Origin: an uncultured Bacteriovorax sp.
Lineage (GTDB): Bacteria; Bdellovibrionota; Bacteriovoracia; Bacteriovoracales; Bacteriovoracaceae
Length of the DNA stretch: 64,000 nucleotides
Direction: 5' to 3'
Assembly (NCBI GenBank): GCA_946482295.1
Contig: CAMLRB010000001.1
Coordinates: forward strand, 1 to 64,000
The notes beneath the pieces are model-generated. The model had not been told where the DNA came from. It saw nothing but the letters and a program-made list of their open reading frames with translations, and did no database searches. The stretch's first letter is position 1. Every line of letters starts with the position of its first letter. The translations under genes were made by a program, and so were the position numbers. Below are positions 1 to 60,051 of the stretch, piece by piece.

Positions 1-260
1 AAATCCTTTGCTTTAAATGTTTCAAAAAAGATGTAAAGTGGAATTAGACCATCTCTCAATGATACCGTTTTATTCTTTTCAACTTCCTTAAAATCATGTC
101 CACCAAACAAAAGCACAGGTGAATGATTTCCAAAAAACTCCTGTGAGAATGGTGACAAGTAATGCAAATAAAGATCGTCTTTAAAATCATTACTTTGTTT
201 TTTATTAAGGTATGTATTTTTGATGAGCTCAAAGCCCCATTGAACATATTGATCTGTCAT
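1..260 (-). CDS. Partner protein of unknown family, N-terminal part only (unit A)
   Basis: The gene starts at ATG 260-258 and runs off the left edge, so 86 codons are visible. It overlaps the stop of the upstream glycosyltransferase gene by 4 bases (ATGA), which implies translational coupling. The visible part closely resembles the N-terminus of the 331-residue protein encoded at 1598-2593: both share an LSPF segment near residue 37, LLFGG near residue 50 and RDGLIPL near residue 70. I do not recognise the family and see no signal peptide or membrane segment. The repeated pairing with a glycosyltransferase suggests the two proteins act together, for example in acceptor binding; that is inference. 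The truncation is caused by the window edge, not by a mutation. Confidence 0.8.
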   Translation of the reverse strand, partial: MTDQYVQWGFELIKNTYLNKKQSNDFKDDLYLHYLSPFSQEFFGNHSPVLLFGGHDFKEVEKNKTVSLRDGLIPLYIFFETFKAKD

Positions 261-1597
261 AGGTCCCACTTATTCTCTGTATTGCCAGAGATGTAATGTT
301 GGTAAACTTCATTATAAAAGGTGTCACTGGAGGGTGTCAGTTGCTTGCTTAGTTCTTTCCAAACCTTTACTGACCAAAATTCATTGGAATAATATCCAAG
401 CGACCATTTAAATCCGCTAAATACTGAGTATGGTTTTTTCAAAATAGCTTCAAGCTTTGGTGTTGAACCTATAATTCCAAACTCTGATATAAAATCTTTC
501 GCCCTACGCTCACGGATATTATTATCTATTTCAACGCTAAATTTTTTATAAAAATTGAGAAGAGTTCCAACTTTTAATAAATGCCCGTAGGGAGTGAGCT
601 TAACACTCATCAAATAACAATCCCATTTAGGATTAGCGAATGACGAGTAGCCTCCCCAGTCAGTCAACAAGCTAGGTAGCCCACAACTTAGTGCTTCAGC
701 AGGAGACATACCATAATCTTCATCATGATAAAGGCTTAGGCTCACAAACATATCTGCACCATTCTTCAACAACCTTAATTCTTTTTTTCCTTGGTGACCA
801 AAAAAGTGAATGTTTTTTCTACATCCGGGATCAAGTGTTTCCATTAGATTGTTTATTTTGGCAAATAAGTATCCTTCGCGGGTCCCAACCCCCATGAACG
901 TTGCACCTATATCATCAAACGAACCTACAATCCAAAGATGGGCCTTTCCAGTTGAATACTTGTAAATTTCCTGGAATTCTTGCACGAGAACATCGACATT
1001 TTTTTGTAAACTTACTCGTCCACTATAAAGGATAACCCTCTCATCTAACTTTATCCCATATTTCTTTCTAGTTTGTTCACGCTCTTCTTCACTGAAGTAA
1101 TATTCACTTTCATTAACTGGGAATAAAAACTGCTCAAGTGTCGAGTCACTTTCTGAAAAGAAATTCATCAAACGTTTTTGAGATTCAGATGCCACAATAA
1201 ACTTAACTGGATGTCCTTTCAGTTTTTGAGAGAGTCTTTGCCAGTCAGATGCAAAAAAAGTGAAATCTCCGTAGACGTGGAAAACAAGAGGAGGAAGTTT
1301 GCTGTATTCGATATAAAATTCAAAATAAAGTAAGATCTTAGGCGGATTTGGAACATGATCAACCAGCACAATCTCCGAAAAATTCTCTTTTTTAATTAAA
1401 TCAACAAGTGATTCTATAATATTGTGTCCGTGAATAAATTCTTCTTTCAAGAACAATTCTGGAATATCAAAATAGGTAATCTTTGCACCCTTCTCTTTCA
1501 AATTTTCGTACGCCACTTGAAGATTTGGAGAGATTACTTTACAGCTACCCCATGAAGAAAGCTTTGAAGAACGAATTATAAGAATATTTTTTTTCAT
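257..1597 (-). CDS. GT-B glycosyltransferase, GT4-like (unit A)
   Basis: This 446-residue protein has the look of a cytoplasmic retaining GT-B glycosyltransferase. A donor-side loop SGRVSLQKN lies at residues 192-200, and the EX7E motif (E293 to E301, in EDYGMSPAE) is followed by an ALSCGLP segment, as in family GT4. The N-terminus is unusual: a short strand followed by SSWGSCKVISPNL at residues 14-26, also present in the paralogue at 2590-3921. A VYGDFT segment lies near residue 108. It has no signal peptide or membrane helix. The gene overlaps its downstream partner by 4 bases and sits 1 base after the upstream gene, so it is part of a minus-strand operon of two GT/partner units. The donor sugar and acceptor cannot be read from sequence; a peptide acceptor is suggested only by the adjacent RiPP-like operon. 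Confidence 0.85.
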   Translation of the reverse strand: MKKNILIIRSSKLSSWGSCKVISPNLQVAYENLKEKGAKITYFDIPELFLKEEFIHGHNIIESLVDLIKKENFSEIVLVDHVPNPPKILLYFEFYIEYSKLPPLVFHVYGDFTFFASDWQRLSQKLKGHPVKFIVASESQKRLMNFFSESDSTLEQFLFPVNESEYYFSEEEREQTRKKYGIKLDERVILYSGRVSLQKNVDVLVQEFQEIYKYSTGKAHLWIVGSFDDIGATFMGVGTREGYLFAKINNLMETLDPGCRKNIHFFGHQGKKELRLLKNGADMFVSLSLYHDEDYGMSPAEALSCGLPSLLTDWGGYSSFANPKWDCYLMSVKLTPYGHLLKVGTLLNFYKKFSVEIDNNIRERRAKDFISEFGIIGSTPKLEAILKKPYSVFSGFKWSLGYYSNEFWSVKVWKELSKQLTPSSDTFYNEVYQHYISGNTENKWDL

Positions 1598-2593
1598 TTA
1601 ATTCAGCTCAATATTTTTATAGTAACGCTTGATGTATGTTCCATACCATTTTTCCCAACCAGCTCCAATATTTCTTGGATTGGTCCCTTTTTCAATAATT
1701 TTTCTTAAATAAGGCAATTGTTGATCTGAAAGTGGATCAATATATTTGGGACAATTTTTTTCATCAAGCTTATATATTTTCATTCGGTGATATAAACTCA
1801 ATGGAATTGAATTCACTTCAACGAGAGGTTCTTTTTCTACTTCTGTCTTGAGCAAGCCAGCTCCTCGAGACAAGAACAAATGAAGCGGAAAAGTGTCTTT
1901 GATAAAATGACCTCTATTAATTTCACAATACATGGAATTTTTCAAATTTATTTCATTTTTCAATATCTGCCATTCAGGAAACTTAATATCCAGCTTAAAT
2001 TCTTTAAAAAGTATTTTGGCATATCCAAAAATATTTTCATCTTGCCATCTCCCCCACAAGTCAGTTCTCTTGTTGGGAAAATAACCAATAATCTCCATGC
2101 CATCGATATTCTTTTTGCCTAAAGATTTCGCTATAAACTCAATGTCCTCTGCAAACTCATCTGGATCGGCCAAAGTTTCGTTTGGACTTCCCATGATAAT
2201 TAATCTTTGTGGGGGATTTTTTTGTGAGTATGTCGTATTTGCGACAATATCATAATATGTGACAGATTCGCGCCATTCTTCTGGCACAATAAACCAAAGA
2301 TCTTTATGAATCATCAGTTTAACTTTTTCTGGCTTAAGTGTGTTATCTCTGAAAAACATTGATAAAGGGATAAGACCATCACGAATTGTCCAAAGATTCT
2401 TTTTCATAAGTTGGGCCACATCAACTCCACCAAACAACAATGCTGGATTTGTTGGTCCAAAATATTTTTCAGCAAATGGACTAAGATAACTTAAGTAAGT
2501 TCTTTCTTGATCAGTAATCGTTTCAGTATTATTTAAATAATAGTTTTGAATGAAATCATAACTCCACTGAACAATTTCTTTTTGCTTTGTCAT
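1598..2593 (-). CDS. Partner protein of unknown family, full length (unit B)
   Basis: This is a 331-residue protein that I do not recognise. It lacks a signal peptide and obvious membrane segments and is rich in Trp and Tyr. Segments shared with the partial gene at 1-260 are LSPF (37-40), LLFGG (52-56) and RDGLIPL (71-77). Its C-terminal half holds FPEWQI and, further on, FPLHLFLSRGAGLL. Both have weaker counterparts (FSEWKI and VFNVLLANGAELE) in the 163-residue protein at 5813-6304, so all three are probably one family, the last one shortened. The start ATG at 2593 overlaps the stop of the glycosyltransferase at 2590-3921 by 4 bases, so the two are very likely made together. Function is unknown; an accessory, acceptor-binding or carrier role for the glycosyltransferase is a guess. 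Confidence 0.8.
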   Translation of the reverse strand: MTKQKEIVQWSYDFIQNYYLNNTETITDQERTYLSYLSPFAEKYFGPTNPALLFGGVDVAQLMKKNLWTIRDGLIPLSMFFRDNTLKPEKVKLMIHKDLWFIVPEEWRESVTYYDIVANTTYSQKNPPQRLIIMGSPNETLADPDEFAEDIEFIAKSLGKKNIDGMEIIGYFPNKRTDLWGRWQDENIFGYAKILFKEFKLDIKFPEWQILKNEINLKNSMYCEINRGHFIKDTFPLHLFLSRGAGLLKTEVEKEPLVEVNSIPLSLYHRMKIYKLDEKNCPKYIDPLSDQQLPYLRKIIEKGTNPRNIGAGWEKWYGTYIKRYYKNIELN

Positions 2594-3921
2594 TTCTCAG
2601 TTCCTTCCAGGGCAGAGATATAATTCTTGTACACATTAAAATAAAAACTACGGCGATCTGGATTCAAAAATTTATTTAACTTACTTTTTGACCAGTTCAT
2701 ACTAAGAGCATTTGAGTATTGCTCTAAATACCAGTTGAAGCCAGAAAAAGGAGTGATATCTTTTTGCAATATCTGCTGAAGCATTGAAACATTAGTTTTG
2801 ATTGAAAAGCATTTTTGAAACTCAAGGGCACGATCGACTCGAGACTCTTCAAGTTGCATTTTATTTTTTATAATTTTTGAAAAAAAGTTGGAGATTTCAT
2901 CAGTATCAATTTCCAAACCAAACTCTGTGATATCGACATTCACGAGATCACATATCCATTTATTTGAGTTGGCAAAAGAATTGTAACCTCCCCAGTCTGT
3001 TAACAATGACGGAAGTCCAGTGCTCAGGGCTTCAGCTGGTGACATTCCATAGTCTTCATCATGATAGAGGCTTAGACTAACGAAGCAGTCTGCACCCGCT
3101 TTCAGTTTTCTTAAATTGTTTTTTGATTGATGTCCTAGAAAATGAATATCATTTTTTATTTCTGGATTTAGACTTTGAAGCAGTAGTTGCATTTTATGAA
3201 ACATATATCCATGGAATGTGCTGTAACCTAAAAAATCTGCTCCTACATCATCAAATGCACCTGCTATATAAAGTTTGAGATTTGAATTTTTAGCTTTCTC
3301 GTCAGCAAACCGTCTGATCAAAGTATCAACATTCTTCTGCAAACTAATTCTTCCAGAATAAAGAATCATGAAGTCATCTCGACCTAGCTTCAATTCTTCT
3401 CTCGTTTCATTTCTTTCTTTCAAGCTATAAAAATAATCGTCTTCATTAACGGGAAAGCAAAGCTTGTGAACTGATGACTTAGAGTCTTCCAGAAAAAAAT
3501 TAACTAAACGCTTTTGGGAATCAGAAGCAACGATAAAACAAATTTGATGATCTCTTAACTCGTTATTGAGAAAAAGCCATTCCGATGCAAAATATGTAAA
3601 ATCTCCATAAATGTGAAAAATGAGTGGAGGTAGCTTACTCAATTGCATATGCAACGAGAGATGACCCAATACGCTGGATGGAACAGGAAGATGATCTATG
3701 AAGATGATTCGCTCAGGCTTCCATTCGATGATTTTATTTTTTAGTTTTTCAATTGATGAATGTTTCGAAGCCAATTCGGATTTTATAATTTCTTGCGGTA
3801 CACTGAACCACTCTATTTGATGATTTGTTAACTGAAGATATAATTCATGCAAGTTTGGTGAGATGACTTTGCAACTTCCCCAACTGGATTCATCCTGGCT
3901 CTTAATCAGCAACAGCTTCAT
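2590..3921 (-). CDS. GT-B glycosyltransferase, GT4-like (unit B)
   Basis: A 443-residue paralogue of the protein at 257-1597, alike along most of its length. It has SSWGSCKVISPNL at residues 12-24, IYGDFT near 104, SGRISLQKN at 189-197 and an EX7E motif E289 to E297 (EDYGMSPAE) followed by ALSTGLP. These are GT4 features of the GT-B fold. It is the first gene of the minus-strand operon. An AAGGA Shine-Dalgarno lies 7 bases before the ATG at 3921. It is divergent from the peptide operon starting at 4163, with 241 bases between the two starts. The near repetition of a GT plus partner unit indicates tandem duplication followed by divergence, so the two enzymes may add different sugars or act on different sites. 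Substrate is unknown. Confidence 0.85.
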   Translation of the reverse strand: MKLLLIKSQDESSWGSCKVISPNLHELYLQLTNHQIEWFSVPQEIIKSELASKHSSIEKLKNKIIEWKPERIIFIDHLPVPSSVLGHLSLHMQLSKLPPLIFHIYGDFTYFASEWLFLNNELRDHQICFIVASDSQKRLVNFFLEDSKSSVHKLCFPVNEDDYFYSLKERNETREELKLGRDDFMILYSGRISLQKNVDTLIRRFADEKAKNSNLKLYIAGAFDDVGADFLGYSTFHGYMFHKMQLLLQSLNPEIKNDIHFLGHQSKNNLRKLKAGADCFVSLSLYHDEDYGMSPAEALSTGLPSLLTDWGGYNSFANSNKWICDLVNVDITEFGLEIDTDEISNFFSKIIKNKMQLEESRVDRALEFQKCFSIKTNVSMLQQILQKDITPFSGFNWYLEQYSNALSMNWSKSKLNKFLNPDRRSFYFNVYKNYISALEGTEK

Positions 3922-4111
3922 TCACGTTCCTTATTCTAGTGACATACATTATCTCAATGAAGTCCTTGATAATTCCATCCTTTTTTTATTACGGACTTGG
4001 GGAGCGTCCATAAATACTGCCAATAGCCTACCATTTGAGTCGGACATCAATTGCCATCTATTGAATAGGGCCACACAACCTCAAGAAATCATTTGCCCAA
4101 ATATTGCACAT

Positions 4112-4139
4112 TTGTAAATTGGTGCATTTACATTATACT
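4112..4139 (+). promoter_or_regulatory. Putative promoter of the peptide operon
   Basis: A -35-like TTGTAA (4112-4117) and a -10-like TATACT (4134-4139) are separated by 16 bases and lie 24 bases before the precursor start codon. An AAGGA Shine-Dalgarno (4148-4152) is correctly spaced from the ATG at 4163. The same bases read on the minus strand give a perfect TATAAT (4132-4137), so the -10 could serve both directions, although I see no good minus-strand -35. Confidence 0.5.
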
Positions 4140-4162
4140 GAGATTATAAGGATAAGCATTTC

Positions 4163-4315
4163 ATGAAAAAAGAAGACGAAAATAGTCAACCAAATGGCAG
4201 TGACGAGGGGCAAATTGAAAAGCCATACTTCGGAACTTTAAAGCCTCTTACGGCCATTCAGATCATCAGTCTAATTGTTCCTTCGAGCCCAGTAGGGGCC
4301 GGTGCTTGCTATTAA
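4163..4315 (+). CDS. Putative RiPP precursor peptide
   Basis: A 50-residue ORF, too short for usual gene calling, with a good Shine-Dalgarno (AAGGA, 10 bases before the ATG) and a promoter-like sequence just upstream. The N-terminal 20 residues are hydrophilic and acidic (MKKEDENSQPNGSDEGQIEK), followed by PYFGTLKPLT and a hydrophobic stretch, then a small-residue C-terminus SSPVGAGACY. This leader/core layout, and its position one codon before a PqqD-like recognition protein, are what one expects of a ribosomally made, post-translationally modified peptide. The TAA is followed directly by the ATG of the next gene, so translation is coupled. Possible modification sites are the two Ser at 41-42, Cys49, Tyr50 and upstream Thr/Ser. 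No double-glycine cleavage motif or dedicated protease is seen. I recognise no named RiPP class; precursor status is inference from context. Confidence 0.65.
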   Translation: MKKEDENSQPNGSDEGQIEKPYFGTLKPLTAIQIISLIVPSSPVGAGACY

Positions 4316-4615
4316 ATGAAGTATGCAAATTTCTACCCTAAACTCGAAGCTCAAATTTTTCCCAGCAACACAAGTCGCGAAGAACTTTTTCTTTTTAATT
4401 CCAGTACCAATCGAGGTTTTTCACTTGATGGAGTTGCCGCTGATATTTGCAAGAAATTTACTGGCGATAAAAAACTCTCTGACATTGTAAGTGAAGTTGA
4501 ATCAGAACGAAAGTTAGTATCAGGACTTTTTAATAAAGAGATCGATGATCTTCTCAATGAATTGGAAAATTTCAAACTAGTGAGCTTTCACGAGGATCCA
4601 CAAAGCTCCACGTAG
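4316..4615 (+). CDS. PqqD-like RiPP recognition element protein
   Basis: A 99-residue protein with the PqqD/RRE layout: a beta-rich N-terminus with ELFLFNSSTNRGFSLDGVA (residues 23-41), then helices carrying ADICKKFTGDKKLSDIV (42-58) and a C-terminal winged-helix-like end with EIDDLLNELENFKLV (75-89). PqqD-family proteins are small chaperones that bind the leader of a precursor peptide and present it to modifying enzymes. The gene begins on the base after the stop codon of the 50-residue peptide and is followed 7 bases later by a glycosyltransferase gene, so the likely client is that peptide and the likely enzymes are those downstream. No radical SAM gene, the classic PqqD partner, lies in this operon; the nearest are HemW at 6872 and the cluster from 15381. 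Assignment is by pattern, not by search. Confidence 0.75.
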   Translation: MKYANFYPKLEAQIFPSNTSREELFLFNSSTNRGFSLDGVAADICKKFTGDKKLSDIVSEVESERKLVSGLFNKEIDDLLNELENFKLVSFHEDPQSST

Positions 4616-4622
4616 AGACTTC

Positions 4623-5816
4623 ATGCAAATAATTCTACTCACGTCCGAAGCTGATGATCAGGATAGTGTGACTAAGATAAGTCATAATCTCGCTCAACTT
4701 TATTCGAAGCTTTTTTCTAATATCAAGACAGTACCGATTGAGAGCGTTCGCTTAGACAAAAGCGCCATTCGCTACATAGTCATCCACCCACTTGTAGTAA
4801 CCCACCCCCTGTTTCATCAACTCTTAGAAACTTCAAACCCATTAAGCGAGTTTGTTTTTCATCTATTTGGTGACTATACAAGGAAGAGTTCCTTCTATTT
4901 GAAATTAGAAAATGCATTACTGGGTAAAAAGATAACTTGGGTAACGGCATCTACTAGTTTTAAAAAATTAGTTGAAAAAACTTTAAAACAGGCTTCAGTG
5001 TCGCTTCTCCCCTTCCCACTTGATCTCAATTCTTTTCAAGTATCAGAGAAGCTTCGTTTACAGACACGTGAGCAATTAGGTCTTCAAACCACAGACAAAC
5101 TATTTCTCTATAGTGGACGTCTCTCACCTCAAAAAAACATAATCCAACTTATTGAGGAATTCCACAACTGGCATGCCGAAAATCCTCGGTTTCATCTCGC
5201 TTTAATTGGTCATTTAGATCATTTTGAGAATCCAACTTTTTTCGAAAAAAAATACAGACCAGGAGAATATTTTTTTGAGTTATCAACTTTACTTAAAAAA
5301 CTTAATAACAAAAATATTCATATCATAGAGCACTCCACTCATTCGAAGCTTAATGCCTATTATAATGCTGCTGATCTCTTTATGAGTTTTTCTCTTTATC
5401 ATGATGAAGATTATGGCTATTCGCCGCTAGAAGCACTTGCATCCGGATGCCCTTGTCTCTTAACTCGTTGGTGTGGTTTTAAAGACACCTTGAAAGCAGC
5501 ATCGCAATTTGGCATTGGCAAAAAAATCGTGTTTGAGAACAATGAACTTAAATTTGAAAAAACTGATGTTCATTCACTAACAAATATTCTGCAAATTGAT
5601 CTCGCAGATCGCAGAAGACTGGCAAATACCATACACAACACTTTGGACTATTCCATTTTAGGCGATAGACTTCTTGAAATCTTAAACGAAGGCACGACCT
5701 TTAAAGGATTCACAGAAGAATTTAGCGCACTCGCCATAAACTTACTAACTCCTTCAATCCCACCTAACGAAAAACAATACGAACATTTTTATCATTCGTT
5801 TTGGAGTGAAGAGTGA
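4623..5816 (+). CDS. GT-B glycosyltransferase, GT4-like (unit C, in peptide operon)
   Basis: A 397-residue GT-B enzyme related to the two minus-strand glycosyltransferases but more diverged. It has SGRLSPQKN at residues 164-172, the EX7E motif E262 to E270 (EDYGYSPLE) and ALASGCPCLL after it, while the N-terminal GSCKVISPNL segment of the paralogues is replaced by VTKISHNL. SLYHDEDYG just before the motif is conserved in all three. It follows the RRE gene by 7 bases and overlaps the next gene by 4 bases (GTGA). It probably transfers a sugar onto the peptide or onto an intermediate on its pathway; this is inference from operon position. No signal peptide, so it acts in the cytoplasm. Confidence 0.85.
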   Translation: MQIILLTSEADDQDSVTKISHNLAQLYSKLFSNIKTVPIESVRLDKSAIRYIVIHPLVVTHPLFHQLLETSNPLSEFVFHLFGDYTRKSSFYLKLENALLGKKITWVTASTSFKKLVEKTLKQASVSLLPFPLDLNSFQVSEKLRLQTREQLGLQTTDKLFLYSGRLSPQKNIIQLIEEFHNWHAENPRFHLALIGHLDHFENPTFFEKKYRPGEYFFELSTLLKKLNNKNIHIIEHSTHSKLNAYYNAADLFMSFSLYHDEDYGYSPLEALASGCPCLLTRWCGFKDTLKAASQFGIGKKIVFENNELKFEKTDVHSLTNILQIDLADRRRLANTIHNTLDYSILGDRLLEILNEGTTFKGFTEEFSALAINLLTPSIPPNEKQYEHFYHSFWSEE

Positions 5817-6304
5817 AAATTAAAAAACATTTTTCAGCTGAAGTATTCTGGAAAAATGATTTTGAAAATTATTTCTGTCCCTTTTTTGAACAGCTCTTGA
5901 AAATGGAAGATCAGAACGTGCACTTTTACACTAAAAAGAACTCTAGATGCGCTAAAAAGCTATTAATTTATATTAACGAGAAATTTAATTGCTCAACACT
6001 TGAAAAACAGCATGATAATTTCGAAACTTACTATTACATTTCTTCTCTCGCCCAAGTATCAGAGTTTGAAAAAAAATCGCTTCAGTTATTTCCCCTTTCA
6101 CTGATTCTAAAAAAGTCTCATTTTTCCGAGTGGAAAATATTCAACCCGACACCATCTGTAAATGATTGTGTCGATCCAGTTTTTAACGTTCTCTTGGCAA
6201 ATGGAGCAGAGCTCGAAACTTTAAATTGTCCTCAAACGAAGTTAATATTTGAAGAGGATTTATCATTTCAACATGGTATTAGGATTTTTAAGAATGATAA
6301 TTAA
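5813..6304 (+). CDS. Short, diverged partner protein of unknown family (unit C)
   Basis: A 163-residue protein starting at GTG 5813, which overlaps the TGA of the glycosyltransferase gene. I do not recognise a named family. By eye its C-terminal half resembles the partner protein at 1598-2593: FSEWKI aligns with FPEWQI, and VFNVLLANGAELE with LHLFLSRGAGLL, while KKLLIYI may match PQRLIIM. If so, it is a shortened member lacking the N-terminal LSPF/LLFGG/RDGLIPL part, and the GT plus partner pairing occurs three times in this locus. No signal peptide or membrane helix is visible. Function is unknown; the conserved pairing suggests an accessory role for the glycosyltransferase. Confidence 0.7.
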   Translation: MKIKKHFSAEVFWKNDFENYFCPFFEQLLKMEDQNVHFYTKKNSRCAKKLLIYINEKFNCSTLEKQHDNFETYYYISSLAQVSEFEKKSLQLFPLSLILKKSHFSEWKIFNPTPSVNDCVDPVFNVLLANGAELETLNCPQTKLIFEEDLSFQHGIRIFKNDN

Positions 6305-6884
6305 GCTTGATCAAAAGATTGATATTAAAAAGCTTAAAGACTATTTAGAGTTCGTTAAAAAAACATATCCTCCTCATTTAAAACAAAACGGCGTTTGGGG
6401 CGGTTGGTCTATCACTTCAAGCGATGGCTCAATTCACGATGGCTGGCAAGCCGGTGAAAAAGTTAATGATCCAGAAGCTACGGCCCAAACAAAAAATGAT
6501 CTACTGGAGCTATTTACTAAGAATTCTTTCACAACACCGACGCCCTTATTTAAGAATTATATCCTTGAAGTAGTTCAACGAATTAAGGAGATCGATCCCA
6601 AAATTCAACTTTCAAGAATACGCATTGCTGTCTTAGCGCCTCACGATGAGACAGAAGCTTATTGGCACATTGACGGAGATCTTCGCGACAATGAAAAGAA
6701 ATTTAGATTGCACATCCCTATTATCACTAACGAAAAATGTTTTTTTGATTATGAAAACGAGAGACATCACCTAGACGCCGATGGATCAATTTACATAATA
6801 GATGTGAGCAAAAAACATAGAGCAGTCAATCTTTCAAACGAAAGTCGCTATCATCTCATTATGAACATTCACTATTCCAGATAG
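6294..6884 (+). CDS. Aspartyl/asparaginyl beta-hydroxylase-like oxygenase
   Basis: Using ATG 6294 gives 196 residues. AGGA at 6281-6284 lies 9 bases before it, and the start overlaps the upstream stop by 11 bases. ATG 6273 and TTG 6249 are possible longer starts. The C-terminal half has the double-stranded beta-helix hallmarks of the Asp/Asn beta-hydroxylase group of Fe(II)/2-oxoglutarate enzymes: H125-I-D127 as metal ligands, RLHIPI (138-143), a distal H175 in KKHRAVN, and R185 in ESRYHLIMN, which would bind 2-oxoglutarate. The N-terminal region has WGGWS near residue 35. In RiPP pathways such enzymes hydroxylate the peptide (CinX in cinnamycin), so the 50-residue peptide is the obvious candidate substrate here, though a free-standing role is possible. 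It is the last gene of the operon and converges with hemW, overlapping it by 13 bases. Confidence 0.75.
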   Translation: MIIKLDQKIDIKKLKDYLEFVKKTYPPHLKQNGVWGGWSITSSDGSIHDGWQAGEKVNDPEATAQTKNDLLELFTKNSFTTPTPLFKNYILEVVQRIKEIDPKIQLSRIRIAVLAPHDETEAYWHIDGDLRDNEKKFRLHIPIITNEKCFFDYENERHHLDADGSIYIIDVSKKHRAVNLSNESRYHLIMNIHYSR

Positions 6885-7984
6885 GAAAATAGATCGCTCA
6901 TAAGGGAATCGAGCATTAAAAATCCGTTGCTATTTAATCGTAAAAAATTAGGATCATAAGTTTTCAGATATCCCAGGGATTTCCATTTTCTGGAAACTTC
7001 ATCGAAGTGAGTAGGATGAGTGAAATCACTCCTGGACAAACCAATATCCGATCTTAAAGACATGTAGATTTTTTCCAGTACAAACTCTTTTTCAGTCAGC
7101 TTCTCTAACTCAACTTCCTCTTCTTGTGTTTTCCACTTATACCGAACTCTCTCTTCTGCTAAAAATCCTGTGGCTGAAGCTCCTAGCGCAGCGACTGTAT
7201 GCGAGCGCCAGTAGTTTAAATTATGTTGCGACTCTCTCTGTGGGAGTGAAAAATTGGAAACTTCATAATGATTAAAACCATTATTTTTTAAAAACTCTGC
7301 AGTCTTTAGATATTCATCATGAATCCAATCTTCATGAGGTAAAGTTGCATAGTGTTTATAATTGCTTTTAACTGTAAGAATGTAGACGCTAAAATGCTGA
7401 GGATTAAATTTTAAAACTTGCTTAAGTTCATCTTCAATATTTCGCCCTTGCTTATCAGAAGAGGGCAGGCCAAGCATAAAATCGACCGAAAAATTAGATT
7501 TTTTTTTAGAAAAAAATTCTAAAGTCTCGAAAACATCATCAACATTGTGGGTTCTATCAAGTAGTGGAAGTAACTTTCCATTCAACGTTTGCACACCAAT
7601 TGAAAAGCGATTAACCCCAATCTTTTCGAATTTTTCAATTCCTTTCTCTGTCCATGCTTTCGGATTTACTTCCAGGGTGAATTCACATTGTGGATCCAAC
7701 GACATTTTTCGATCGCGTAAAAACTGACCTAAAAATTCAGCACCACTTTCTCCCCACAAAGAAGGGGTTCCTCCACCAATGTAGAGGGTCTTTAGGGGCA
7801 CAAAAGAATAACCATACTCTTTGGTCAGGATTTCATGTCTTTTAAAACTTCTAATGAGAAACTGCTCAAAAAAATCCAAATCTGATTTGGATGCATCACT
7901 TTTGCGCTTAAAAAAATCGCAGTAATTGCATAGGTGCAAACAGAAAGGAAAGTGAATATAGAGAGAGTCTATTTTTTTTGTCAT
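6872..7984 (-). CDS. hemW: HemW-like radical SAM protein
   Basis: A 370-residue radical SAM protein of the HemN/HemW group. The N-terminus has YIHFPFCLHLCNYCDFF with the CX3CX2C cluster ligands C15, C19 and C22, the Tyr and Asp typical of the family, and GGGTPSLW near residue 72 for S-adenosylmethionine binding. A C-terminal HemW-type region follows with YEVSNF and a QHNLNYW segment. HemW is a heme chaperone, formerly called oxygen-independent coproporphyrinogen III oxidase-like. The length fits HemW, which is shorter than HemN. The gene stands alone on the minus strand, divergent from the M16 peptidase and convergent with the oxygenase. Participation in the neighbouring peptide pathway is unlikely, since HemW is a housekeeping protein. 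Confidence 0.85.
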   Translation of the reverse strand: MTKKIDSLYIHFPFCLHLCNYCDFFKRKSDASKSDLDFFEQFLIRSFKRHEILTKEYGYSFVPLKTLYIGGGTPSLWGESGAEFLGQFLRDRKMSLDPQCEFTLEVNPKAWTEKGIEKFEKIGVNRFSIGVQTLNGKLLPLLDRTHNVDDVFETLEFFSKKKSNFSVDFMLGLPSSDKQGRNIEDELKQVLKFNPQHFSVYILTVKSNYKHYATLPHEDWIHDEYLKTAEFLKNNGFNHYEVSNFSLPQRESQHNLNYWRSHTVAALGASATGFLAEERVRYKWKTQEEEVELEKLTEKEFVLEKIYMSLRSDIGLSRSDFTHPTHFDEVSRKWKSLGYLKTYDPNFLRLNSNGFLMLDSLMSDLFSYLE

Positions 7985-14396: not shown

Positions 14397-15392
14397 ATGA
14401 AGTATTTCGCGATTATTTTTTCAATATTATTAACCACTTTGTTAACAGAAGTTGGGCTGAGAGTATCAGGCATAGTAAAAACTTATACTGAAATTAATTA
14501 TGATGGGAAGTATGTTTCAACTTTCCAAGTAGCACCTTTCCCAACTCATACCAAACATACTCACAAAACAATCGATTTTGATTTTCCTGATATTACTTTA
14601 AATTCGCTGTCTATAAGAAGCCCGGAAATTTCATCCAAACAAAAAAATGAATTGCGAATTTTATTTTTGGGTGATTCATTTACTTTCGGTGTAGGCGCAC
14701 CAGATGAAAAAACTGTTGCTGAACAAGTTTCAAAATACCTAAAAAGAGATTTTCCTAATCAACATATATCAATTATTAATGGCGGTATTCCAGGTGGGGA
14801 CATCGTTAGCGAAGTTGAGTTTTTTCATCGCAAGCTACATGTATATGAACCTGATATTATATTTTATTTTTTAAACACATCAGATGTTTTAGACATTTCT
14901 TCCAAAGGAGGATTTGAAAGATATAAAAGAAAAAATGATGAACTATCTATGATTGAAACAATCTGGAAGCATTCACACTTTTTCAGAGCGGTAATGAGAG
15001 TAGGTTTCAAATGGAATTGGGACTTAAGATCTCCAGAAGAAGTTGAGATTAACAATCAAAATGCAATTAAAACCATTGCAAAAACAGCAAGTGAATTTCA
15101 AAAAGAGTTACTAAAATCCAATAGACCTTTTTATATTTTCTTCCATCCTTATCCATATGAACTTCAATATGGTGTTAAAAATGTTGAATTAAAAAATGAA
15201 ATTACTAAATACCCCAATGTTTTATTTATAGATCTATTTGGTGATTTTGAAATTAATTTTAAAAATTTGAACATTGATCAATTTTCATATCCAAACGATG
15301 GACATTTCAATATTTACGGTTATGAAAAATTCGCTGAAATTGTATATCCAAAGGTAAAAGAAATCGTAAAAAAATATTCATTAAGAAAATAA
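14397..15392 (+). CDS. Membrane-anchored SGNH-family hydrolase
   Basis: A 331-residue protein with an N-terminal hydrophobic segment (about residues 3-20) that should anchor it so the catalytic part faces the periplasm. The SGNH blocks are visible: LFLGDSFTFGVG (90-100, nucleophile S94), NGGIPGGD (block II Gly), LNTSD (block III Asn) and NDGHFN with D301 and H303 near the C-terminus. Family members remove or transfer acyl groups on lipids, glycans or peptidoglycan. It follows meaB by 14 bases and could be read through from it, but it is more AT-rich and unrelated in function. Its end overlaps the convergent radical SAM gene by 12 bases. Substrate is unknown; a surface glycan ester is plausible given the nearby radical SAM and transferase-like genes. 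Confidence 0.75.
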   Translation: MKYFAIIFSILLTTLLTEVGLRVSGIVKTYTEINYDGKYVSTFQVAPFPTHTKHTHKTIDFDFPDITLNSLSIRSPEISSKQKNELRILFLGDSFTFGVGAPDEKTVAEQVSKYLKRDFPNQHISIINGGIPGGDIVSEVEFFHRKLHVYEPDIIFYFLNTSDVLDISSKGGFERYKRKNDELSMIETIWKHSHFFRAVMRVGFKWNWDLRSPEEVEINNQNAIKTIAKTASEFQKELLKSNRPFYIFFHPYPYELQYGVKNVELKNEITKYPNVLFIDLFGDFEINFKNLNIDQFSYPNDGHFNIYGYEKFAEIVYPKVKEIVKKYSLRK

Positions 15393-16667
15393 GTCGGTAT
15401 GCTTTTTAAGAAGATCATGAAGCTCTGGCAACTCTGATTCCATCTTAACGCCTTTGATGTTATCCATGTTTCCATTGATTCTTTTGAACAGTGAAAGTTG
15501 ATCAGAAGTATTTTTCTGGTTCATAAAGTTTAGGACTTGCAGAATATTTTCGGCCAAATATTTGTGTCTTTCAGGCAACTCATCTTTAAGTTCGTCATAG
15601 AGCTTCGTTAATCTTTCAGTTGCAACAACCTTTATCTCATCAGGTAACACGCTTGATTGTAGGTAACTAGGAATGTGAAGATTAATAAGATTTGCAGCAG
15701 GAACAACCTTTTTAAATTTCTTTAAATAAGCAAAAAGATTTGGCAGATCTAAAATGTTATAAATTTGTACCGTACAAGAAAGTAGAATTTCTTCCAGTTG
15801 ATATTTTTCTGCATTCTGATCAAGGAACGTGAGATTTCTATCTAGGACATCCCATTTTGAGGGATGGCGGATATAATCATTCACGGGACCAAAACCATCT
15901 ACGGAACAAAGTAATCGTACCGCTTTAAAACCTCTCCACAACTCAAGAATATTTTCAGGCAGTTTTGTGAGGTTTGTGTTGTAAGTAAGAGTAATATTTT
16001 TAGCGTACCCACTATCAATGCAGTACTTCAACATTCTCGCCATTTGAGGAGTGATGAGAGGTTCGCCACCCGCAAAGTGAAGATGTTCTGCATGTTCTAG
16101 TTTTTGTTTGAACTCTTGAAAGAGGTGATCTTTTTCGATCCAGTCGAAACTCTCGAGCTCTTTTCTTCGCTCTGGTGACATCATCTCATTGTCGATTTTG
16201 ACGTTATTCCATTCTTTTAACCACGCAGTCGATGAATGGGGTCCACACATACGACATTGTAAATTACATAGATTTCCTAAGCGATAATCAATGGATTTAA
16301 ATTTGACTGGGATTGTTCCGTCAGGCTTTGTCTGAAGAACTGATTCAACTATGACATGATCGTAATTTTTATTTTCGATCATTCTGCGACTTACGCCATT
16401 ATCCAATTCAGTGACCAAACAACGTGCGCAAACAGGATTCCATTTGCCTTCCATCATGTCTCTGCGGACTTTTTTCATGAATTCTGAATTCATGACTTCA
16501 TCTAGGCTGGGTTTGTCTTTGATATTGAAGTACTTACCATCGTTAGACTTGATAGCACGGTGATGTTCTTCGCTTGTACAGCATACCTGATAGTTTCCGT
16601 CACTATTCACGAAACTGTGAATCCAGGGAAGGATACAAAATGCTTTTTCGATTGGTTTTTCGTCCAT
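15381..16667 (-). CDS. Twitch-domain radical SAM protein (1)
   Basis: A 428-residue protein with an N-terminal auxiliary Cys domain and then a radical SAM barrel. The N-terminal part has FCILPWIHSF (C11), VCC (C29, C30) and CARC (C80, C83), a twitch/SPASM-like set for an extra iron-sulfur cluster. The barrel carries LCNLQCRMC (C134, C138, C141) and HFAGGEPLIT for SAM binding. This arrangement, with the auxiliary domain before the barrel, is typical of the family named twitch domain-containing radical SAM protein, for which I know no established substrate. It is the only minus-strand gene in this cluster, divergent from a relative at 16741 with 73 bases between, and probably acts on the same pathway. 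Confidence 0.85.
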   Translation of the reverse strand: MDEKPIEKAFCILPWIHSFVNSDGNYQVCCTSEEHHRAIKSNDGKYFNIKDKPSLDEVMNSEFMKKVRRDMMEGKWNPVCARCLVTELDNGVSRRMIENKNYDHVIVESVLQTKPDGTIPVKFKSIDYRLGNLCNLQCRMCGPHSSTAWLKEWNNVKIDNEMMSPERRKELESFDWIEKDHLFQEFKQKLEHAEHLHFAGGEPLITPQMARMLKYCIDSGYAKNITLTYNTNLTKLPENILELWRGFKAVRLLCSVDGFGPVNDYIRHPSKWDVLDRNLTFLDQNAEKYQLEEILLSCTVQIYNILDLPNLFAYLKKFKKVVPAANLINLHIPSYLQSSVLPDEIKVVATERLTKLYDELKDELPERHKYLAENILQVLNFMNQKNTSDQLSLFKRINGNMDNIKGVKMESELPELHDLLKKHTDLFS

Positions 16668-16740
16668 GCTTAACCTAAAATTGTCTTACGTTTTAATGAT
16701 TAACTATCAGTGCTAATTAGGCTAGTCTTAATTATAGTTG

Positions 16741-17988
16741 ATGGAGAAAAATTTGGAAAAAGAATTACAGGAATTGAAGGATTCCAAGACATTTTGTCTC
16801 ATACCTTGGATTCATCTTCACGTGATGCCTGACAGCTCCGTTATCCCATGTTGTGTATCTCCCTATGATAACGTCTACGGAAATGGAACAACACAAACAC
16901 TCAAAGAAATTTGGAATTCTGATAAATACAAAGAGCTAAGACAAAACATGTTAAACAACAAGCCGTCTACTGGATGTCAACGTTGTTATGTTTTAGAAAG
17001 TTCTGGTTTTGAAAGCATGAGAACATCAATCAATAAAAGATTTGAATCTCACCTAGATAAAGTTTTAGAAACGGCAGAAGATGGTTCATTGAACGCCGAT
17101 AATTTTGAATTGAAATACATCGATATTCGCTTTAGCAATTTATGTAATTTCAAATGTCGCGGATGTGGCCCCTCGCTCAGTAGCTCTTGGTACGAAGATC
17201 ATCAACTGTTGTTCAATTACAAATCAAACGAACAAAAAGTAAAAAGTGTTTCCATTCAATCACCAAACTTTTGGGAAGAACTTAAAGTTGCTATCCCTCA
17301 AGCCGAAGAAATTTATTTCGGCGGTGGAGAACCTCTCATCACCAAAGAACACTTTGAAGTTTTGAAGTTGCTTGAACAACAAGAGCGTTTTGATATGCGC
17401 CTGAGCTATAATACAAATCTAGCTCAGCTGAACTATGGCCAGCATAACCTGGCTGAAATTTGGTCTAAATTTTCTTTTGTTAAAGTTGGTATTAGTATTG
17501 ATGACTTTGGCGCTCGGGCAGAATATTTTCGCCATGGAACCAAATGGAAACTCATTGAAGAAAACCTTCAAAAACTAATGACGAATCATCCAACGGTCAT
17601 TCGCTATGTTAATTGCACCGTGAATATTATGAATGTACTCTACTTACCAGAGTTGTTCGACAAATTGGTAACGGCTAGAATTATATCTCCTGCTGACTTT
17701 AACATTAATTTGCTTCTTGACCCTGATGAATACTGTGTCCAGGTTCTGCCTGCTCATCTAAAAACTTTAGTAAAAAACAAATTAAACACATTTGTTCAGA
17801 CACTCATTAAGCGCGGTCCAATGTTTATTAAAGCTGCAAAAGATTTTGAAAACATCATCACTTTTATAGATGAAAAAAATAATAGTCATCTCTTGGGATT
17901 ATTTAAGCAAAATACACTCAAATTAGATGAGCTTAGAAAAGAATCATTCGCGACAGTATTTCCAGAGTTAAAAGAGTTAGTGGAATAA
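16741..17988 (+). CDS. Twitch-domain radical SAM protein (2)
   Basis: A 415-residue paralogue of the protein at 15381-16667. From ATG 16741 it has FCLIPWIHLH (C19), PCC (C37, C38), GCQRC (C79, C82), the radical SAM ligands LCNFKCRGC (C135, C139, C142) and YFGGGEPLIT. The start is uncertain: ATG 16741 has no clear Shine-Dalgarno, while TTG 16753 has GGAG 6 bases upstream and loses only four residues. It is followed by a nucleotidyltransferase-like gene 6 bases later and then two coupled radical SAM genes, so four genes form one operon. Function is not known; the shared fold with its divergent neighbour suggests a two-enzyme step on similar substrates. Confidence 0.85.
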   Translation: MEKNLEKELQELKDSKTFCLIPWIHLHVMPDSSVIPCCVSPYDNVYGNGTTQTLKEIWNSDKYKELRQNMLNNKPSTGCQRCYVLESSGFESMRTSINKRFESHLDKVLETAEDGSLNADNFELKYIDIRFSNLCNFKCRGCGPSLSSSWYEDHQLLFNYKSNEQKVKSVSIQSPNFWEELKVAIPQAEEIYFGGGEPLITKEHFEVLKLLEQQERFDMRLSYNTNLAQLNYGQHNLAEIWSKFSFVKVGISIDDFGARAEYFRHGTKWKLIEENLQKLMTNHPTVIRYVNCTVNIMNVLYLPELFDKLVTARIISPADFNINLLLDPDEYCVQVLPAHLKTLVKNKLNTFVQTLIKRGPMFIKAAKDFENIITFIDEKNNSHLLGLFKQNTLKLDELRKESFATVFPELKELVE

Positions 17989-17994
17989 AATTTA

Positions 17995-18855
17995 ATGAAG
18001 AATAAGATTTTTCATCATCTTCATCTTCTATTTTCAAAACTAAATTTTTTTCACATCTTTGTGGCCAAAACTTACAAATACGCTTTAGTACCACTCATTA
18101 CCTCGTACTTAAAATTTCGATTTCCTCATTTAAAGAAAGTAATCGTCAGAAATTCTCTTGCGGAAAAAAATAATTTTGATGCCTTCCTTTCTGACATAGA
18201 CCTAACTCTGATTATCGAAAACAAATCTGAAACCAAGCAAATTCTATTAACTTTTTTAAAGTTAAAAACAATTTTTATCATGCTCGATCAACCTGAAATT
18301 TATGAAGAGAATGAATATCAAAAACTTTCTGAACTATATTCAACATGGACAGCTGACTTCATTCGTTTCACATGGAATTTTCGTAAAATTAACTGGTCAT
18401 TAGCTGAACTTGAAAGTTCGAATAATGAAGCTGAAAAATTTAAAAAGCTTCGATCAATTAAAAAATCTTTGTCAAAAATATCCCATTTAACCGATATTAA
18501 AACTCCTTTTATTTTGCAAGATTTCTCATGCTTTACTCGATTTAAAAATCTTTCTCACCAAGATAACAAGACTATTTGTTATTGGTCTCAATATTTAGAA
18601 ACCTCTTCGGGAAAAGGTATCCAGCTACTCTTAGATGCGAACGAATTTAAGCTTTTAAATTCATTAATGCCGGGTGAACCGGTTGAAGTACGATTTAACA
18701 TCCCAGACGTCCTTCAAGTAAAGTCTGCTCTTCAATATCATGAACTTTATCTGAGTATGAACACTGTTCGATTAAGATCAGCGCTTAAAAAAGATATAAC
18801 TCCGTGGACAGAATGGATTGAACATTTGCATAAACAGTTAGGGATAAATTCATGA
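17995..18855 (+). CDS. Nucleotidyltransferase-fold protein, putative
   Basis: A 286-residue protein. Residues 48-74 (KVIVRNSLAEKNNFDAFLSDIDLTLII) resemble the polymerase-beta-type nucleotidyltransferase signature: a turn with Ser (N53-S54 in place of the usual Gly-Ser) followed by the metal-binding D67-I-D69. The rest is helical and not recognised. Such proteins transfer NMP groups to small molecules, proteins or RNA, but the altered Gly makes activity uncertain. The gene is 6 bases after the second twitch radical SAM gene and overlaps the next radical SAM gene by 4 bases (ATGA), which ties it to the pathway. It is AT-rich, like its neighbours. An inactive, substrate-binding relative is also possible. 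Confidence 0.55.
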   Translation: MKNKIFHHLHLLFSKLNFFHIFVAKTYKYALVPLITSYLKFRFPHLKKVIVRNSLAEKNNFDAFLSDIDLTLIIENKSETKQILLTFLKLKTIFIMLDQPEIYEENEYQKLSELYSTWTADFIRFTWNFRKINWSLAELESSNNEAEKFKKLRSIKKSLSKISHLTDIKTPFILQDFSCFTRFKNLSHQDNKTICYWSQYLETSSGKGIQLLLDANEFKLLNSLMPGEPVEVRFNIPDVLQVKSALQYHELYLSMNTVRLRSALKKDITPWTEWIEHLHKQLGINS

Positions 18856-19859
18856 AGCGATTACCTAATAAAGATCTCTTTTTTTGTGATGAAAATGGGA
18901 ACTATAGTATGCTTTCAACATCAGAAGCATTGAGTAAACGTTTGAACAAGTGGATAGGATGGAAGTGTTCGGCGGGCGTCTATAACTTACATATTACTGC
19001 TGACGGAAATATTTTTTCAGCAACTTGTAAAGTTGGCGGCTTACTTGGAAACGTTTTTGATTATGGTGTTGAGTTTCCAAAAGAGTGGATTAGATGTACC
19101 AAAACATGGTGCATGTGTGGATCTGACATGCGTTTGCTTAAAATGAAAGATACAGAAGCAATCACACTCGGCATTCCAACCCATTTCCAAGAAAACGTCG
19201 TTGAACCTAATTTGGTAGGCCCTGATGATCTCTATGAAAAACATCGTGTCCACCAGATTATAACATGGGATATTGGCAGAAGATGTAACTACAGCTGTAG
19301 CTATTGTCCTCCTTCGACAGCAAATAATTTTGAATCACATAAAACATTACAATCTCTCAAGCAAGCAGCGGATTTACTGCTCACTAAATTTTGCAAAAAA
19401 AATAATGCAAAATGGGTGTTTACAGGTGGTGAACCAACAATCAATCCTGCTTACTTGGATTTGATAAAATACCTCTCAAGTTTTCGCCAAGTTCTTCATA
19501 CTCAGAGTAATGGCAGTCGTGACCCTAATTATTTTTCTGAACTTATTCGTTACAGCTCTGTTGGTTTGAGCGTCCATTTTGAAGAATACAATGAAGAGCG
19601 ACTTCTTGATAATTGCCAAGCGATCATCAAAGAAAAGTTGGCGGATTCAAAGATTCAGAAAAACTGGTTTTCAATTCGCTTCATGGTATCTCCAGATGGA
19701 TTTGAGCGTGCTCGTTGTTTAAAAGAAAAGATTCAACAACTCCCAAACGCCGAAATGATTAATGCGATCAATATGTCCCCATTATATAGCCGCGAGAATG
19801 GAGAAGAACTCATGAAATACTCTCCTCAAGAGTTAGCTTCAATTGAGGAGCATGCTTAA
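18852..19859 (+). CDS. Radical SAM protein with N-terminal Cys-rich domain (1)
   Basis: A 335-residue protein. Residues 36-93 form a Cys-rich module: GWKCSAG (C39), a DGNIFSATCKVGG hairpin (C59), then RCTKTWCMCG (C82, C87, C89), probably binding an auxiliary iron-sulfur cluster as SPASM domains do, but placed before the barrel. The radical SAM ligands are RRCNYSCSYC (C145, C149, C152) followed by PPST, and FTGGEPTINP is the SAM-binding strand. The start ATG overlaps the previous stop by 4 bases and its stop shares one base with the next start, so translation is coupled. It is a paralogue of the next gene, about half identical by eye. Substrate is unknown. Confidence 0.85.
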   Translation: MKRLPNKDLFFCDENGNYSMLSTSEALSKRLNKWIGWKCSAGVYNLHITADGNIFSATCKVGGLLGNVFDYGVEFPKEWIRCTKTWCMCGSDMRLLKMKDTEAITLGIPTHFQENVVEPNLVGPDDLYEKHRVHQIITWDIGRRCNYSCSYCPPSTANNFESHKTLQSLKQAADLLLTKFCKKNNAKWVFTGGEPTINPAYLDLIKYLSSFRQVLHTQSNGSRDPNYFSELIRYSSVGLSVHFEEYNEERLLDNCQAIIKEKLADSKIQKNWFSIRFMVSPDGFERARCLKEKIQQLPNAEMINAINMSPLYSRENGEELMKYSPQELASIEEHA

Positions 19860-20854
19860 TGATAAAAGCAAAAAAACTTTTGATGTTTGTCGATCAAGAA
19901 GGAAATTTTTCAGAACATAACACTGAAGAAATACTCGCTTCAAAAAAAAATAATTGGAAAGGATGGAAGTGTTCAGCCGGTGCCAGTAATTTACATGTTA
20001 CGGCCGATGGAAATATTTATGGGGCCACTTGTAAGGTTGGAGGTTTTTTAGGAAACGTCTTTGATAGCGGTGTTCAATTTCCTGACCTTTGGGTCACATG
20101 TACAAAAGAATGGTGTATGTGCGGAGCAGATATGGCCATTCCGAAGTTTAAGCCTGACACTTCTTTAAAATCTCCTACTGTCACTTCAAGCTCGATGGTA
20201 GAACCTACGACAATTGGTTTCGCTAATCAGGAAAAGGCAAAATATTATCCACTAAGCATTACTTGGGACGTAGGAAGAAGATGCAATTATCAGTGCGAAT
20301 ATTGTCCTCCTTCGACTTCAAACACATACGAAGCTCATAAATCTTTTGGGTCGTTAAAATTAGCCGCAGATCAACTCATTCAAAACTTTTGTAAAATGAA
20401 TAAGGCTCAGTGGATTTTTACAGGTGGAGAACCAACTGTGAATCCAGCCTTCATTGAAATTGTTCGCTATCTAAGATCACTCGGTCACTACATTCTTGTC
20501 CAATCTAATGGGAGTCGTGACAGTGATTACTTTAAAGAGCTCATAGAATTAAGTCACGTTGGTTTAAGTGTGCACTTTTCACAATTCAATCGAGAAAAAT
20601 TCATCGATACCTGTTCAGGCATTATAGAGAAAAAGAAATCATTAAAAAATTATGAGAAAAAACATTTCTCAATTCGACTAATGGTCGAACCTGGAAAATT
20701 ACAAGAAGCTCGAGATTTGAAAAATAAGTTGAACGAGATTTCAGAGGGTGAGATTAATTCGATTGTCTTTAGTCCGCTCTATCAAAAACACTATGGTGAC
20801 CAGCTCATGGAGTATAAGGCCGATGAGCTGGCCGCGATATTAGCAAATTCTTAG
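19859..20854 (+). CDS. Radical SAM protein with N-terminal Cys-rich domain (2)
   Basis: A 331-residue tandem paralogue of the preceding gene, with all cluster ligands kept: C38, C58, C81, C86 and C88 in the N-terminal module, then C142, C146 and C149 in RRCNYQCEYCPPST, and FTGGEPTVNP. The two proteins agree in the SPASM-like module, in the barrel and in the QSNGSRD segment, and differ mainly in the linker around residues 95-130. Retention of every ligand in both suggests that both are active enzymes with distinct targets or successive roles. It is the last gene of the operon and converges with the small secreted-protein gene, overlapping it by 4 bases. Confidence 0.85.
   Translation: MIKAKKLLMFVDQEGNFSEHNTEEILASKKNNWKGWKCSAGASNLHVTADGNIYGATCKVGGFLGNVFDSGVQFPDLWVTCTKEWCMCGADMAIPKFKPDTSLKSPTVTSSSMVEPTTIGFANQEKAKYYPLSITWDVGRRCNYQCEYCPPSTSNTYEAHKSFGSLKLAADQLIQNFCKMNKAQWIFTGGEPTVNPAFIEIVRYLRSLGHYILVQSNGSRDSDYFKELIELSHVGLSVHFSQFNREKFIDTCSGIIEKKKSLKNYEKKHFSIRLMVEPGKLQEARDLKNKLNEISEGEINSIVFSPLYQKHYGDQLMEYKADELAAILANS

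Positions 20855-42438: not shown

Positions 42439-43629
<1,191 letters not shown>

Positions 43630-58860: not shown

Positions 58861-60051
<1,191 letters not shown>

Follow-up and report, generated by a model that had tools for sequence, protein, structure and literature searches.

The window analyzed in this study is a 64-kb stretch (positions 1 to 64,000) of contig CAMLRB010000001.1 of assembly GCA_946482295.1, derived from an uncultured Bacteriovorax sp. At positions 4163 to 6884, it carries a candidate operon for a ribosomally synthesized and posttranslationally modified peptide (RiPP). Its five genes are all open and closely packed, and encode, in order, a short peptide, a PqqD-like RiPP recognition element (RRE) protein, a family 4 glycosyltransferase (GT4), a 163-amino-acid (aa) protein, and an Asp/Asn-hydroxylase-like oxygenase. 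The features of the operon are as follows.

4112..4139, +, promoter-like TTGTAA-16-TATACT (at chance level)
4148..4153, +, ribosome-binding site AAGGAT of the peptide gene (read from the sequence)
4163..4315, +, precursor peptide, 50 aa (29 relatives, alignment, nonsynonymous and synonymous differences)
4229..4267, +, conserved leader motif FGTLKPLTAIQII, proposed RRE-binding site (F23, G24, T30, Q33, I34, and I35 invariant in 30 rows)
4301..4312, +, C-terminal GACY, proposed minimal core (A46, C49, and Y50 invariant in 30 rows; Cys-Tyr end in 30/30)
4316..4615, +, PqqD-like RRE protein, 99 aa (Pfam and PDB profile similarity)
4623..5816, +, GT4 glycosyltransferase, 397 aa (PF00534, E value of 9.6e-24; EX7E seen by eye)
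5813..6304, +, proposed glycosyltransferase partner, 163 aa, a short relative of the U280/U331 family (hhalign)
6294..6884, +, Fe(II)/2-oxoglutarate hydroxylase-like protein, PF05118, 196 aa (Pfam, alignment, PDB profile search)

The PqqD-like gene starts at 4316, the base after the TAA of the peptide gene, and both are in the same frame. The 163-aa open reading frame (ORF) has a GTG start and a 4-base overlap with the glycosyltransferase gene. The hydroxylase gene begins within the last part of the 163-aa ORF, at an ATG (6294) that gives a conserved MIIKL start; in the ORF list, its start is instead a TTG further upstream, at 6249. An earlier note, made from this DNA alone, had described a 50-codon peptide gene with a Shine-Dalgarno sequence, a PqqD-like gene directly after its stop, and three coupled genes including an EX7E glycosyltransferase and an HXD...H oxygenase, and this layout is borne out by the AAGGAT site, the gene overlaps, and the family and alignment evidence described below. 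The promoter-like sequence that it had also pointed out was set aside, because the number of such sites between 3900 and 7100 (10 matches) was no higher than in shuffled sequences (mean, 10.1).

Conservation of the peptide and its gene neighborhood

A profile search with five orthologues of the peptide retrieved 29 proteins, of which 4 were seeds, and the worst E value was 2e-5 although matches were listed up to an E value of 10. Together with the window peptide, they form a set of 30 sequences, all ending in Cys-Tyr. Of the 30, 28 carry the leader sequence FG-x-(L/I)-K-P-(L/M)-T-x-x-Q-I-I in its strict form, and the remaining 2 deviate at K or P; M1, F23, G24, T30, Q33, I34, I35, A46, C49, and Y50 are invariant in the alignment. 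Over the last 28 codons, the proportion of synonymous differences (pS) in all 10 pairs of five sequences was 0.58 to 0.94, which is near saturation, and that of nonsynonymous differences (pN) was 0.06 to 0.22. Because pN is far below pS, the peptide is under protein-level selection. Judged by its relatives and codon constraint, the peptide gene is real. No NCBIfam model matched its product.

A single leader type is followed by variable cores. These include GACY, TACY, SACY, SNCY, AACY, GPCY, and CACACGGPCY, and further cores behind the same leader type are a run rich in Cys, Gly, and Pro, SYGGY or SYGGGY, and a long one ending in SPCW. The system therefore shows a genetically encoded precursor with a conserved leader and a variable core, as in RiPPs, and a PqqD-like RRE protein is encoded next to the precursor in 10 of 13 loci, including the window. 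By equal length of the longest contig, eight of the 29 peptides pair with one of 42 hydroxylase relatives, and two with one of four PqqD relatives, which suggests peptide-hydroxylase and peptide-PqqD linkage on these contigs.

RRE similarity of the 99-aa protein was detected by two approaches. The Pfam PqqD model was matched (E value of ≤0.05) by seven of the eight family members scanned, including the window protein (21.9 bits; E value of 2.2e-4), with a best E value of 1.2e-9. A PDB profile search with the family gave four matches with E values of ≤1, and the best two, of modest significance, were the RRE protein TbiB1 (5v1u; E value of 0.0074) and PqqD (3g2b; E value of 0.016). Plasmids yielded a single weak match, to a protein with the annotation PqqD family chaperone (E value of 0.05; 27.6% identity).

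The 13 peptide loci are that of the window and 12 others, which come from 11 genomes. Ten of the 12 other loci were found via the hydroxylase or PqqD, so the counts for PqqD and the oxygenases are partly built in. The closest loci, which have gene order in common with the window, belong to Bacteriovorax and Bacteriovoracaceae metagenome-assembled genomes, and a named relative of the window hydroxylase is from a Bacteriovorax sp., in keeping with a chromosome of the Bacteriovoracales type. Locus L001 has exactly the gene order of the window. L002 and L003 have a second oxygenase gene (OX2) inserted, and two SPASM-type radical S-adenosylmethionine (SAM) enzyme genes, rSp1 and rSp2, downstream of the hydroxylase gene. 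A GT4 gene and a partner-family gene are present in all 13 loci, and the hydroxylase or OX2 in 12, with neither in L148. Where PqqD is not adjacent to the peptide, it is one ORF away (L148) or absent from the stretch (L186 and L187). The earlier note had proposed a RiPP-like logic and had named, among its checks and refuting conditions, RRE similarity of the 99-aa protein, conservation of the peptide in related genomes, and recurrence of the five-gene order. These three gave supportive results, the last exactly in L001 and with additional enzymes in L002 and L003. We conclude that all five are genuine genes and form a unit.

Genome-level searches covered 368 genomes of the phylum of L002, read as Bdellovibrionota. 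The PqqD profile matched 40 genomes at an E value of 0.01. The peptide profile matched 20 at 0.05, of which 11 had E values of 1e-12 or better; the 9 with matches at 0.001 to 0.05 were excluded from the peptide set as probable chance matches. Most peptide genomes supplied seed rows, so these genome counts are partly circular. No relative was found among the 96 pattern matches in viral contigs. In the window, L001, L002, L003, L186, and L187, the cluster stays near hemW, M16 peptidase, methylmalonyl-CoA mutase, and MeaB-like genes (the last two recognized by eye), and its junctions relative to these neighbors vary between genomes.

Tailoring enzymes and exporter genes

The window hydroxylase matched PF05118 with 34.7 bits (cutoff, 22.6). 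PF05118-type enzymes are characterized by an HxD...H iron triad plus an Arg that binds 2-oxoglutarate; the HxD (H125 and D127), H175, and R185 were invariant in 26 hydroxylases. The best 4 of 8 PDB profile matches were beta-hydroxylases and a proline cis-4-hydroxylase (E values of 2e-4 to 3e-3). OX2 is a distant relative of this enzyme (hhalign probability, 96%). None of nine members matched an oxygenase family of Pfam; H182, D184, H236, and R248 were invariant in the nine rows. In the 41 genomes examined, OX2 was found in 10 of the 11 peptide genomes (not in G350) and, as one weaker match (G032; E value of 3e-30), in 1 of 30 others; outside the seed genomes, it was present in G001 and not in G350.

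At an E value of 0.001, the hydroxylase profile matched 37 of the 368 genomes, of which G001 to G005 stand out (1.1e-71 or better; the next value was 1.6e-48). A RiPP association of the more distant hydroxylases was rejected, as PqqD and peptide profile scans (E value of 0.01) of 75 of their loci (L006 to L080) found neither. Diverged PF05118-like proteins also occur in L149, L153, L108, and L109, from other genomes that have no peptide match; L149 has several in one stretch, and in L108, L109, and L153 some adjoin radical SAM genes.

The operon glycosyltransferase matched PF00534 with 84.3 bits. A five-member profile of the 163-aa family matched that of seven proteins of ~280 aa encoded next to GT4 genes of other loci (hhalign probability, 88%; E value of 2.7e-6), and these matched a 331-aa family (98%; E value of 7.5e-15); the direct match between the 163- and 331-aa families was weak (37%). 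These comparisons suggest that the 163-aa protein is a reduced member of a family of glycosyltransferase partners. No PDB relative of the 331-aa family was found at an E value of 5 by profile search, and searches of PHROGs (four proteins) and PADLOC (six proteins) gave no matches. Further GT4/partner genes lie upstream of the operon.

2590..3921, −, divergent GT4 glycosyltransferase (Pfam; same place in L002 and L003)
1598..2593, −, U331, a 331-aa protein paired with GT4 (profile comparison, locus context)
257..1597, −, second divergent GT4 glycosyltransferase (Pfam, locus context)
1..269, −, second U331-like protein, truncated by the window edge (locus comparison)

At L143:2307-4631 (+) and L146:2630-4942 (+), GT4 and U331 are fused into proteins of ~770 aa, which supports the two acting together.

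Genes for a Wzm/Wzt-like ATP-binding cassette exporter lie in the peptide stretches of L143, L146, and L147, all loci with Cys-free cores, and beside rSp1 in L142 and L185; they were not found in the other 10 of the 13 peptide stretches. The L143 exporter was matched by galactan-export models far below their cutoffs. These genes, and the several GT4/partner pairs held by many loci, raise the possibility that the peptide is a glycan-attached or surface tag, with the pairs and the transporter building and exporting a glycan for which the peptide is an acceptor or decoration, and not a natural product in free form. Proteins with a Peptidase_S74 domain and a similar FG leader, encoded beside or near other PqqD genes (see below), would also fit such a role. 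We consider it unlikely, since most peptide stretches have no Wzm/Wzt-like gene, and the variation of the core and the SPASM and HELTH enzymes described next are more typical of RiPPs.

One or both of rSp1 and rSp2 are encoded in 8 of the 13 peptide loci. For the L002 proteins, the best NCBIfam models were PapB for rSp1 (60.7; cutoff, 340) and HxsB for rSp2 (90.5; cutoff, 370), both far below cutoff. The C-terminal domain of rSp2 is metallopeptidase-like, with the motif HELTH (HELSH in one case). Of four tails scanned alone, two weakly matched peptidase family BSP (best, 22.8; cutoff, 23.8) and two weakly matched DA1-like; flagellinolysin was also among the weak peptidase-type matches, and no HExxH hydroxylase model matched. 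As a fused radical SAM/HExxH protein has been shown to be a hydroxylase (PMC12636437), a peptidase is the likelier but still tentative reading of the tail. A copy of rSp2 at L150:10879-12528 (+), near a hydroxylase and a Cys-rich precursor, lacks the radical SAM motif CxxxCxxC and keeps HELTH.

The rSp1 profile (E value of ≤1e-20) matched 9 of the 368 genomes, 8 of them peptide genomes. Outside its six seed genomes, it was found in two of five peptide genomes (G001 and G019; not G010, G012, or G016) versus 1 of 357 others (G189; E value of 1e-37). The rSp2 profile (E value of 1e-20) matched seven genomes, all of them peptide genomes; outside five seed genomes, these were two of six peptide genomes (G001 and G350) versus 0 of 357 others. 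The distant rSp1 relative of G189, a genome without a peptide match, is the last of several neighboring radical SAM-like ORFs at L188:3537-8629 (+). The eight peptide genomes with rSp1 have Cys-containing cores ending in CY, or CW in G350, and the three without it (G010, G012, and G016) have Cys-free cores ending in SNSSYGGY or SNSSYGGGY (Fisher P value of 0.006, which overstates the association because seed and related genomes are included). This distribution suggests that rSp1 may act on the core Cys. No rSp2 was found in G019 despite its CY core.

These genes qualify the remark in the earlier note that the operon has no radical SAM enzyme, protease, or transporter: it is true of the window operon, but that it makes the pathway distinctive is not supported, as related loci or genomes carry such genes. 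Relative to L002, the window is missing OX2, rSp1, rSp2, and any close counterpart of the radical SAM protein rS_L002up (best match, 26% identity), as would be seen if the operon were a decaying remnant, stripped of its radical SAM enzymes and its second oxygenase and no longer able to make a finished product. That explanation is very improbable: the five genes are all open, the peptide is strongly constrained, and L001 has an operon just as compact in a genome (G001) that encodes rSp1 next to Wzm/Wzt-like genes (contig C121) and rSp2 with OX2 (contig C179). For the window organism, a similar dispersal of rSp1, rSp2, OX2, and the exporter elsewhere in the genome is plausible but unproven.

A proposed RRE-dependent pathway

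We consider it probable that the operon forms the central part of a RiPP pathway that depends on an RRE, one for which we found no description, in which the Cys-Tyr end is oxidized and the product glycosylated. The 50-aa precursor would be translated, as its selection supports, and the PqqD-like protein would bind the FG-x-LKPLTAxQII motif of its leader. The 2-oxoglutarate oxygenase may then oxidize the C-terminal end, where Cys-Tyr is invariant in the window's set; in relatives, OX2, rSp1, and rSp2 would join in the oxidation, with rSp1 correlating with Cys-containing cores. The GT4 enzyme and its 163-aa partner would glycosylate the peptide. Where present, the HELTH domain of rSp2 could remove the leader, and the Wzm/Wzt-like transporter, which accompanies the peptide in just 3 of the 13 loci, could export the product. 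In the window organism, leader cutting and export would depend on genes at other sites, an arrangement seen in the L001 genome.

Several observations weigh against this interpretation. The window PqqD-like protein by itself falls below the Pfam cutoff (23.4), and PqqD does not adjoin the peptide in the two loci that were reached by a route other than PqqD or hydroxylase seeds, L186 (G013) and L187 (G019); G013 has its PqqD gene at a distance of ~20 kb, and the PqqD profile found none in G019. The proposed core of the window has no Asp or Asn, and therefore the classical PF05118 substrate is absent there. G350 has no match to either oxygenase family. In the 64-kb window, rSp1, rSp2, OX2, and Wzm/Wzt-like genes were not found and may have been lost. 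The correlation between rSp1 and Cys-containing cores comes from only 11 genomes and may reflect a single evolutionary event or one lineage. The proposed chemistry and leader binding are predictions from sequence, and our certainty about the product is low.

Five proteins of ~150 aa start with a leader-like sequence, KK-(E/P)-Y-x-FG(G/E)I-x-(E/D)-(F/Y)-(N/S)-L (FGGI-x-EFNLEEI type), fused to a Peptidase_S74 chaperone domain.

L209:8099-8557, +, FG-leader/S74 protein, beside a PqqD-like gene
L211:9219-9698, −, FG-leader/S74 protein, beside a PqqD-like gene
L215:7932-8366, −, FG-leader/S74 protein, beside a PqqD-like gene
L199:1818-2285, −, FG-leader/S74 protein, one gene from a PqqD-like gene
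L155:1535-1990, −, FG-leader/S74 protein, ~8 kb from a PqqD-like gene

Among the matches listed for the S74-leader profile, those starting at or before profile position 12 occurred in 17 of 40 PqqD genomes versus 5 of 40 others, or, once the five seed genomes were removed, in 12 of 35 versus 5 of 40. Speculatively, a single FG-motif/RRE recognition system might serve both short RiPP precursors and 150-residue S74 proteins. The window branch would then make a Cys-Tyr-derived, glycosylated microproduct from the last four residues by means of a 2-oxoglutarate enzyme, whether or not radical SAM enzymes assist. We regard this broader proposal as unlikely.

The RiPP reading offers a compact, testable system in a phylum known for predators. 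Its natural variants allow the contributions of the two oxygenases and of the two radical SAM enzymes to be told apart, and the Cys-containing and Cys-free cores provide a direct test of the role of rSp1. Additionally, the unknown proteins next to GT4 enzymes in these loci now have a family.

Elsewhere in the window, far from the operon, positions 15381 to 20854 hold Twitch-type and other radical SAM genes plus a putative nucleotidyltransferase ORF (by eye); a block of similar order lies downstream of a mutase gene at L152:15788-20003. Two EF-Tu ORFs (42439-43629 and 58861-60051, both −) have identical 396-aa translations and nonidentical DNA; two EF-Tu copies are a common arrangement.

Comparison with known systems

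No description of this peptide cluster was found among the matches listed from the published literature. PMC8067016 reports RiPP clusters, called with antiSMASH, in its Bdellovibrionota groups, so loci of this kind may already be counted there, and PMC7470986 mentions RRE-glycosyltransferase fusions, an architecture unlike that of the window.

The domain and family scans of the operon proteins led us to reject a genuine pyrroloquinoline quinone (PQQ) or mycofactocin operon. PqqA, PqqD, and PqqE have defined roles in PQQ biosynthesis; the window operon shares a PqqD-like chaperone with that system but has no PqqE or other radical SAM enzyme and no NCBIfam-recognized PqqA, and it has a glycosyltransferase. 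Cinnamycin and duramycin, and the lasso peptide system with CanE, likewise use a 2-oxoglutarate hydroxylase within a RiPP pathway. However, the operon encodes no lanthipeptide or lasso synthetase (no lanthionine synthetase domain was found in nine scanned proteins of positions 257 to 7984), and its proposed core has no Asp. In a RiPP, Cys and Tyr are reportedly joined by an alpha-ketoglutarate-dependent dioxygenase (Xia et al. 2025, J. Am. Chem. Soc. 147, 26693, as cited in PMC12636437), an attractive precedent for the window core, likened here by description only.

The rSp2 proteins of the relatives resemble ChlBH, a fused radical SAM/alpha-ketoglutarate-HExxH protein, in being of the SPASM type with an HExxH tail, but their tails weakly match peptidase-type models and no HExxH hydroxylase model, and their radical SAM half matches ChlB (9gm3; E value of 3e-14) less well than 8vpo (6e-19). 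The PapB ranthipeptide and HxsB maturases are the best NCBIfam counterparts of rSp1 and rSp2 of L002, at the low scores given above.

MftB of the mycofactocin system is PqqD-like. That system invites a reading in which the terminal Cys-Tyr region is oxidized, excised, and glycosylated to give a small, intracellular redox or metal-binding metabolite similar to a cofactor. The peptide end is short and almost constant in the Bacteriovorax-like set, 10 of the 11 peptide genomes have one strong peptide match each (G005 has two), and the window and five related loci have the cluster close to a shared set of housekeeping genes, all of which would suit a cofactor. This reading is rather unlikely, given the long and Cys-free cores of relatives, the exporter in three loci, and the differences from mycofactocin itself. 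According to PMC7491314, the mycofactocin genes (MftA to MftF) provide a short precursor ending in Tyr, a peptide chaperone (MftB), a glycosyltransferase (MftF), and oxidative tailoring (MftC), each with a parallel here. The precursor ends in Val-Tyr there and in Cys-Tyr in 30 of 30 sequences here; MftF belongs to family GT2 (PMC7491314) and the window enzyme to GT4 (PF00534); and the radical SAM enzyme MftC contrasts with a 2-oxoglutarate oxygenase, with no radical SAM match in the five operon proteins. No counterpart of MftD or MftE was found among the scanned neighbors. The pathway resembles mycofactocin biosynthesis in outline and is distinct from it.

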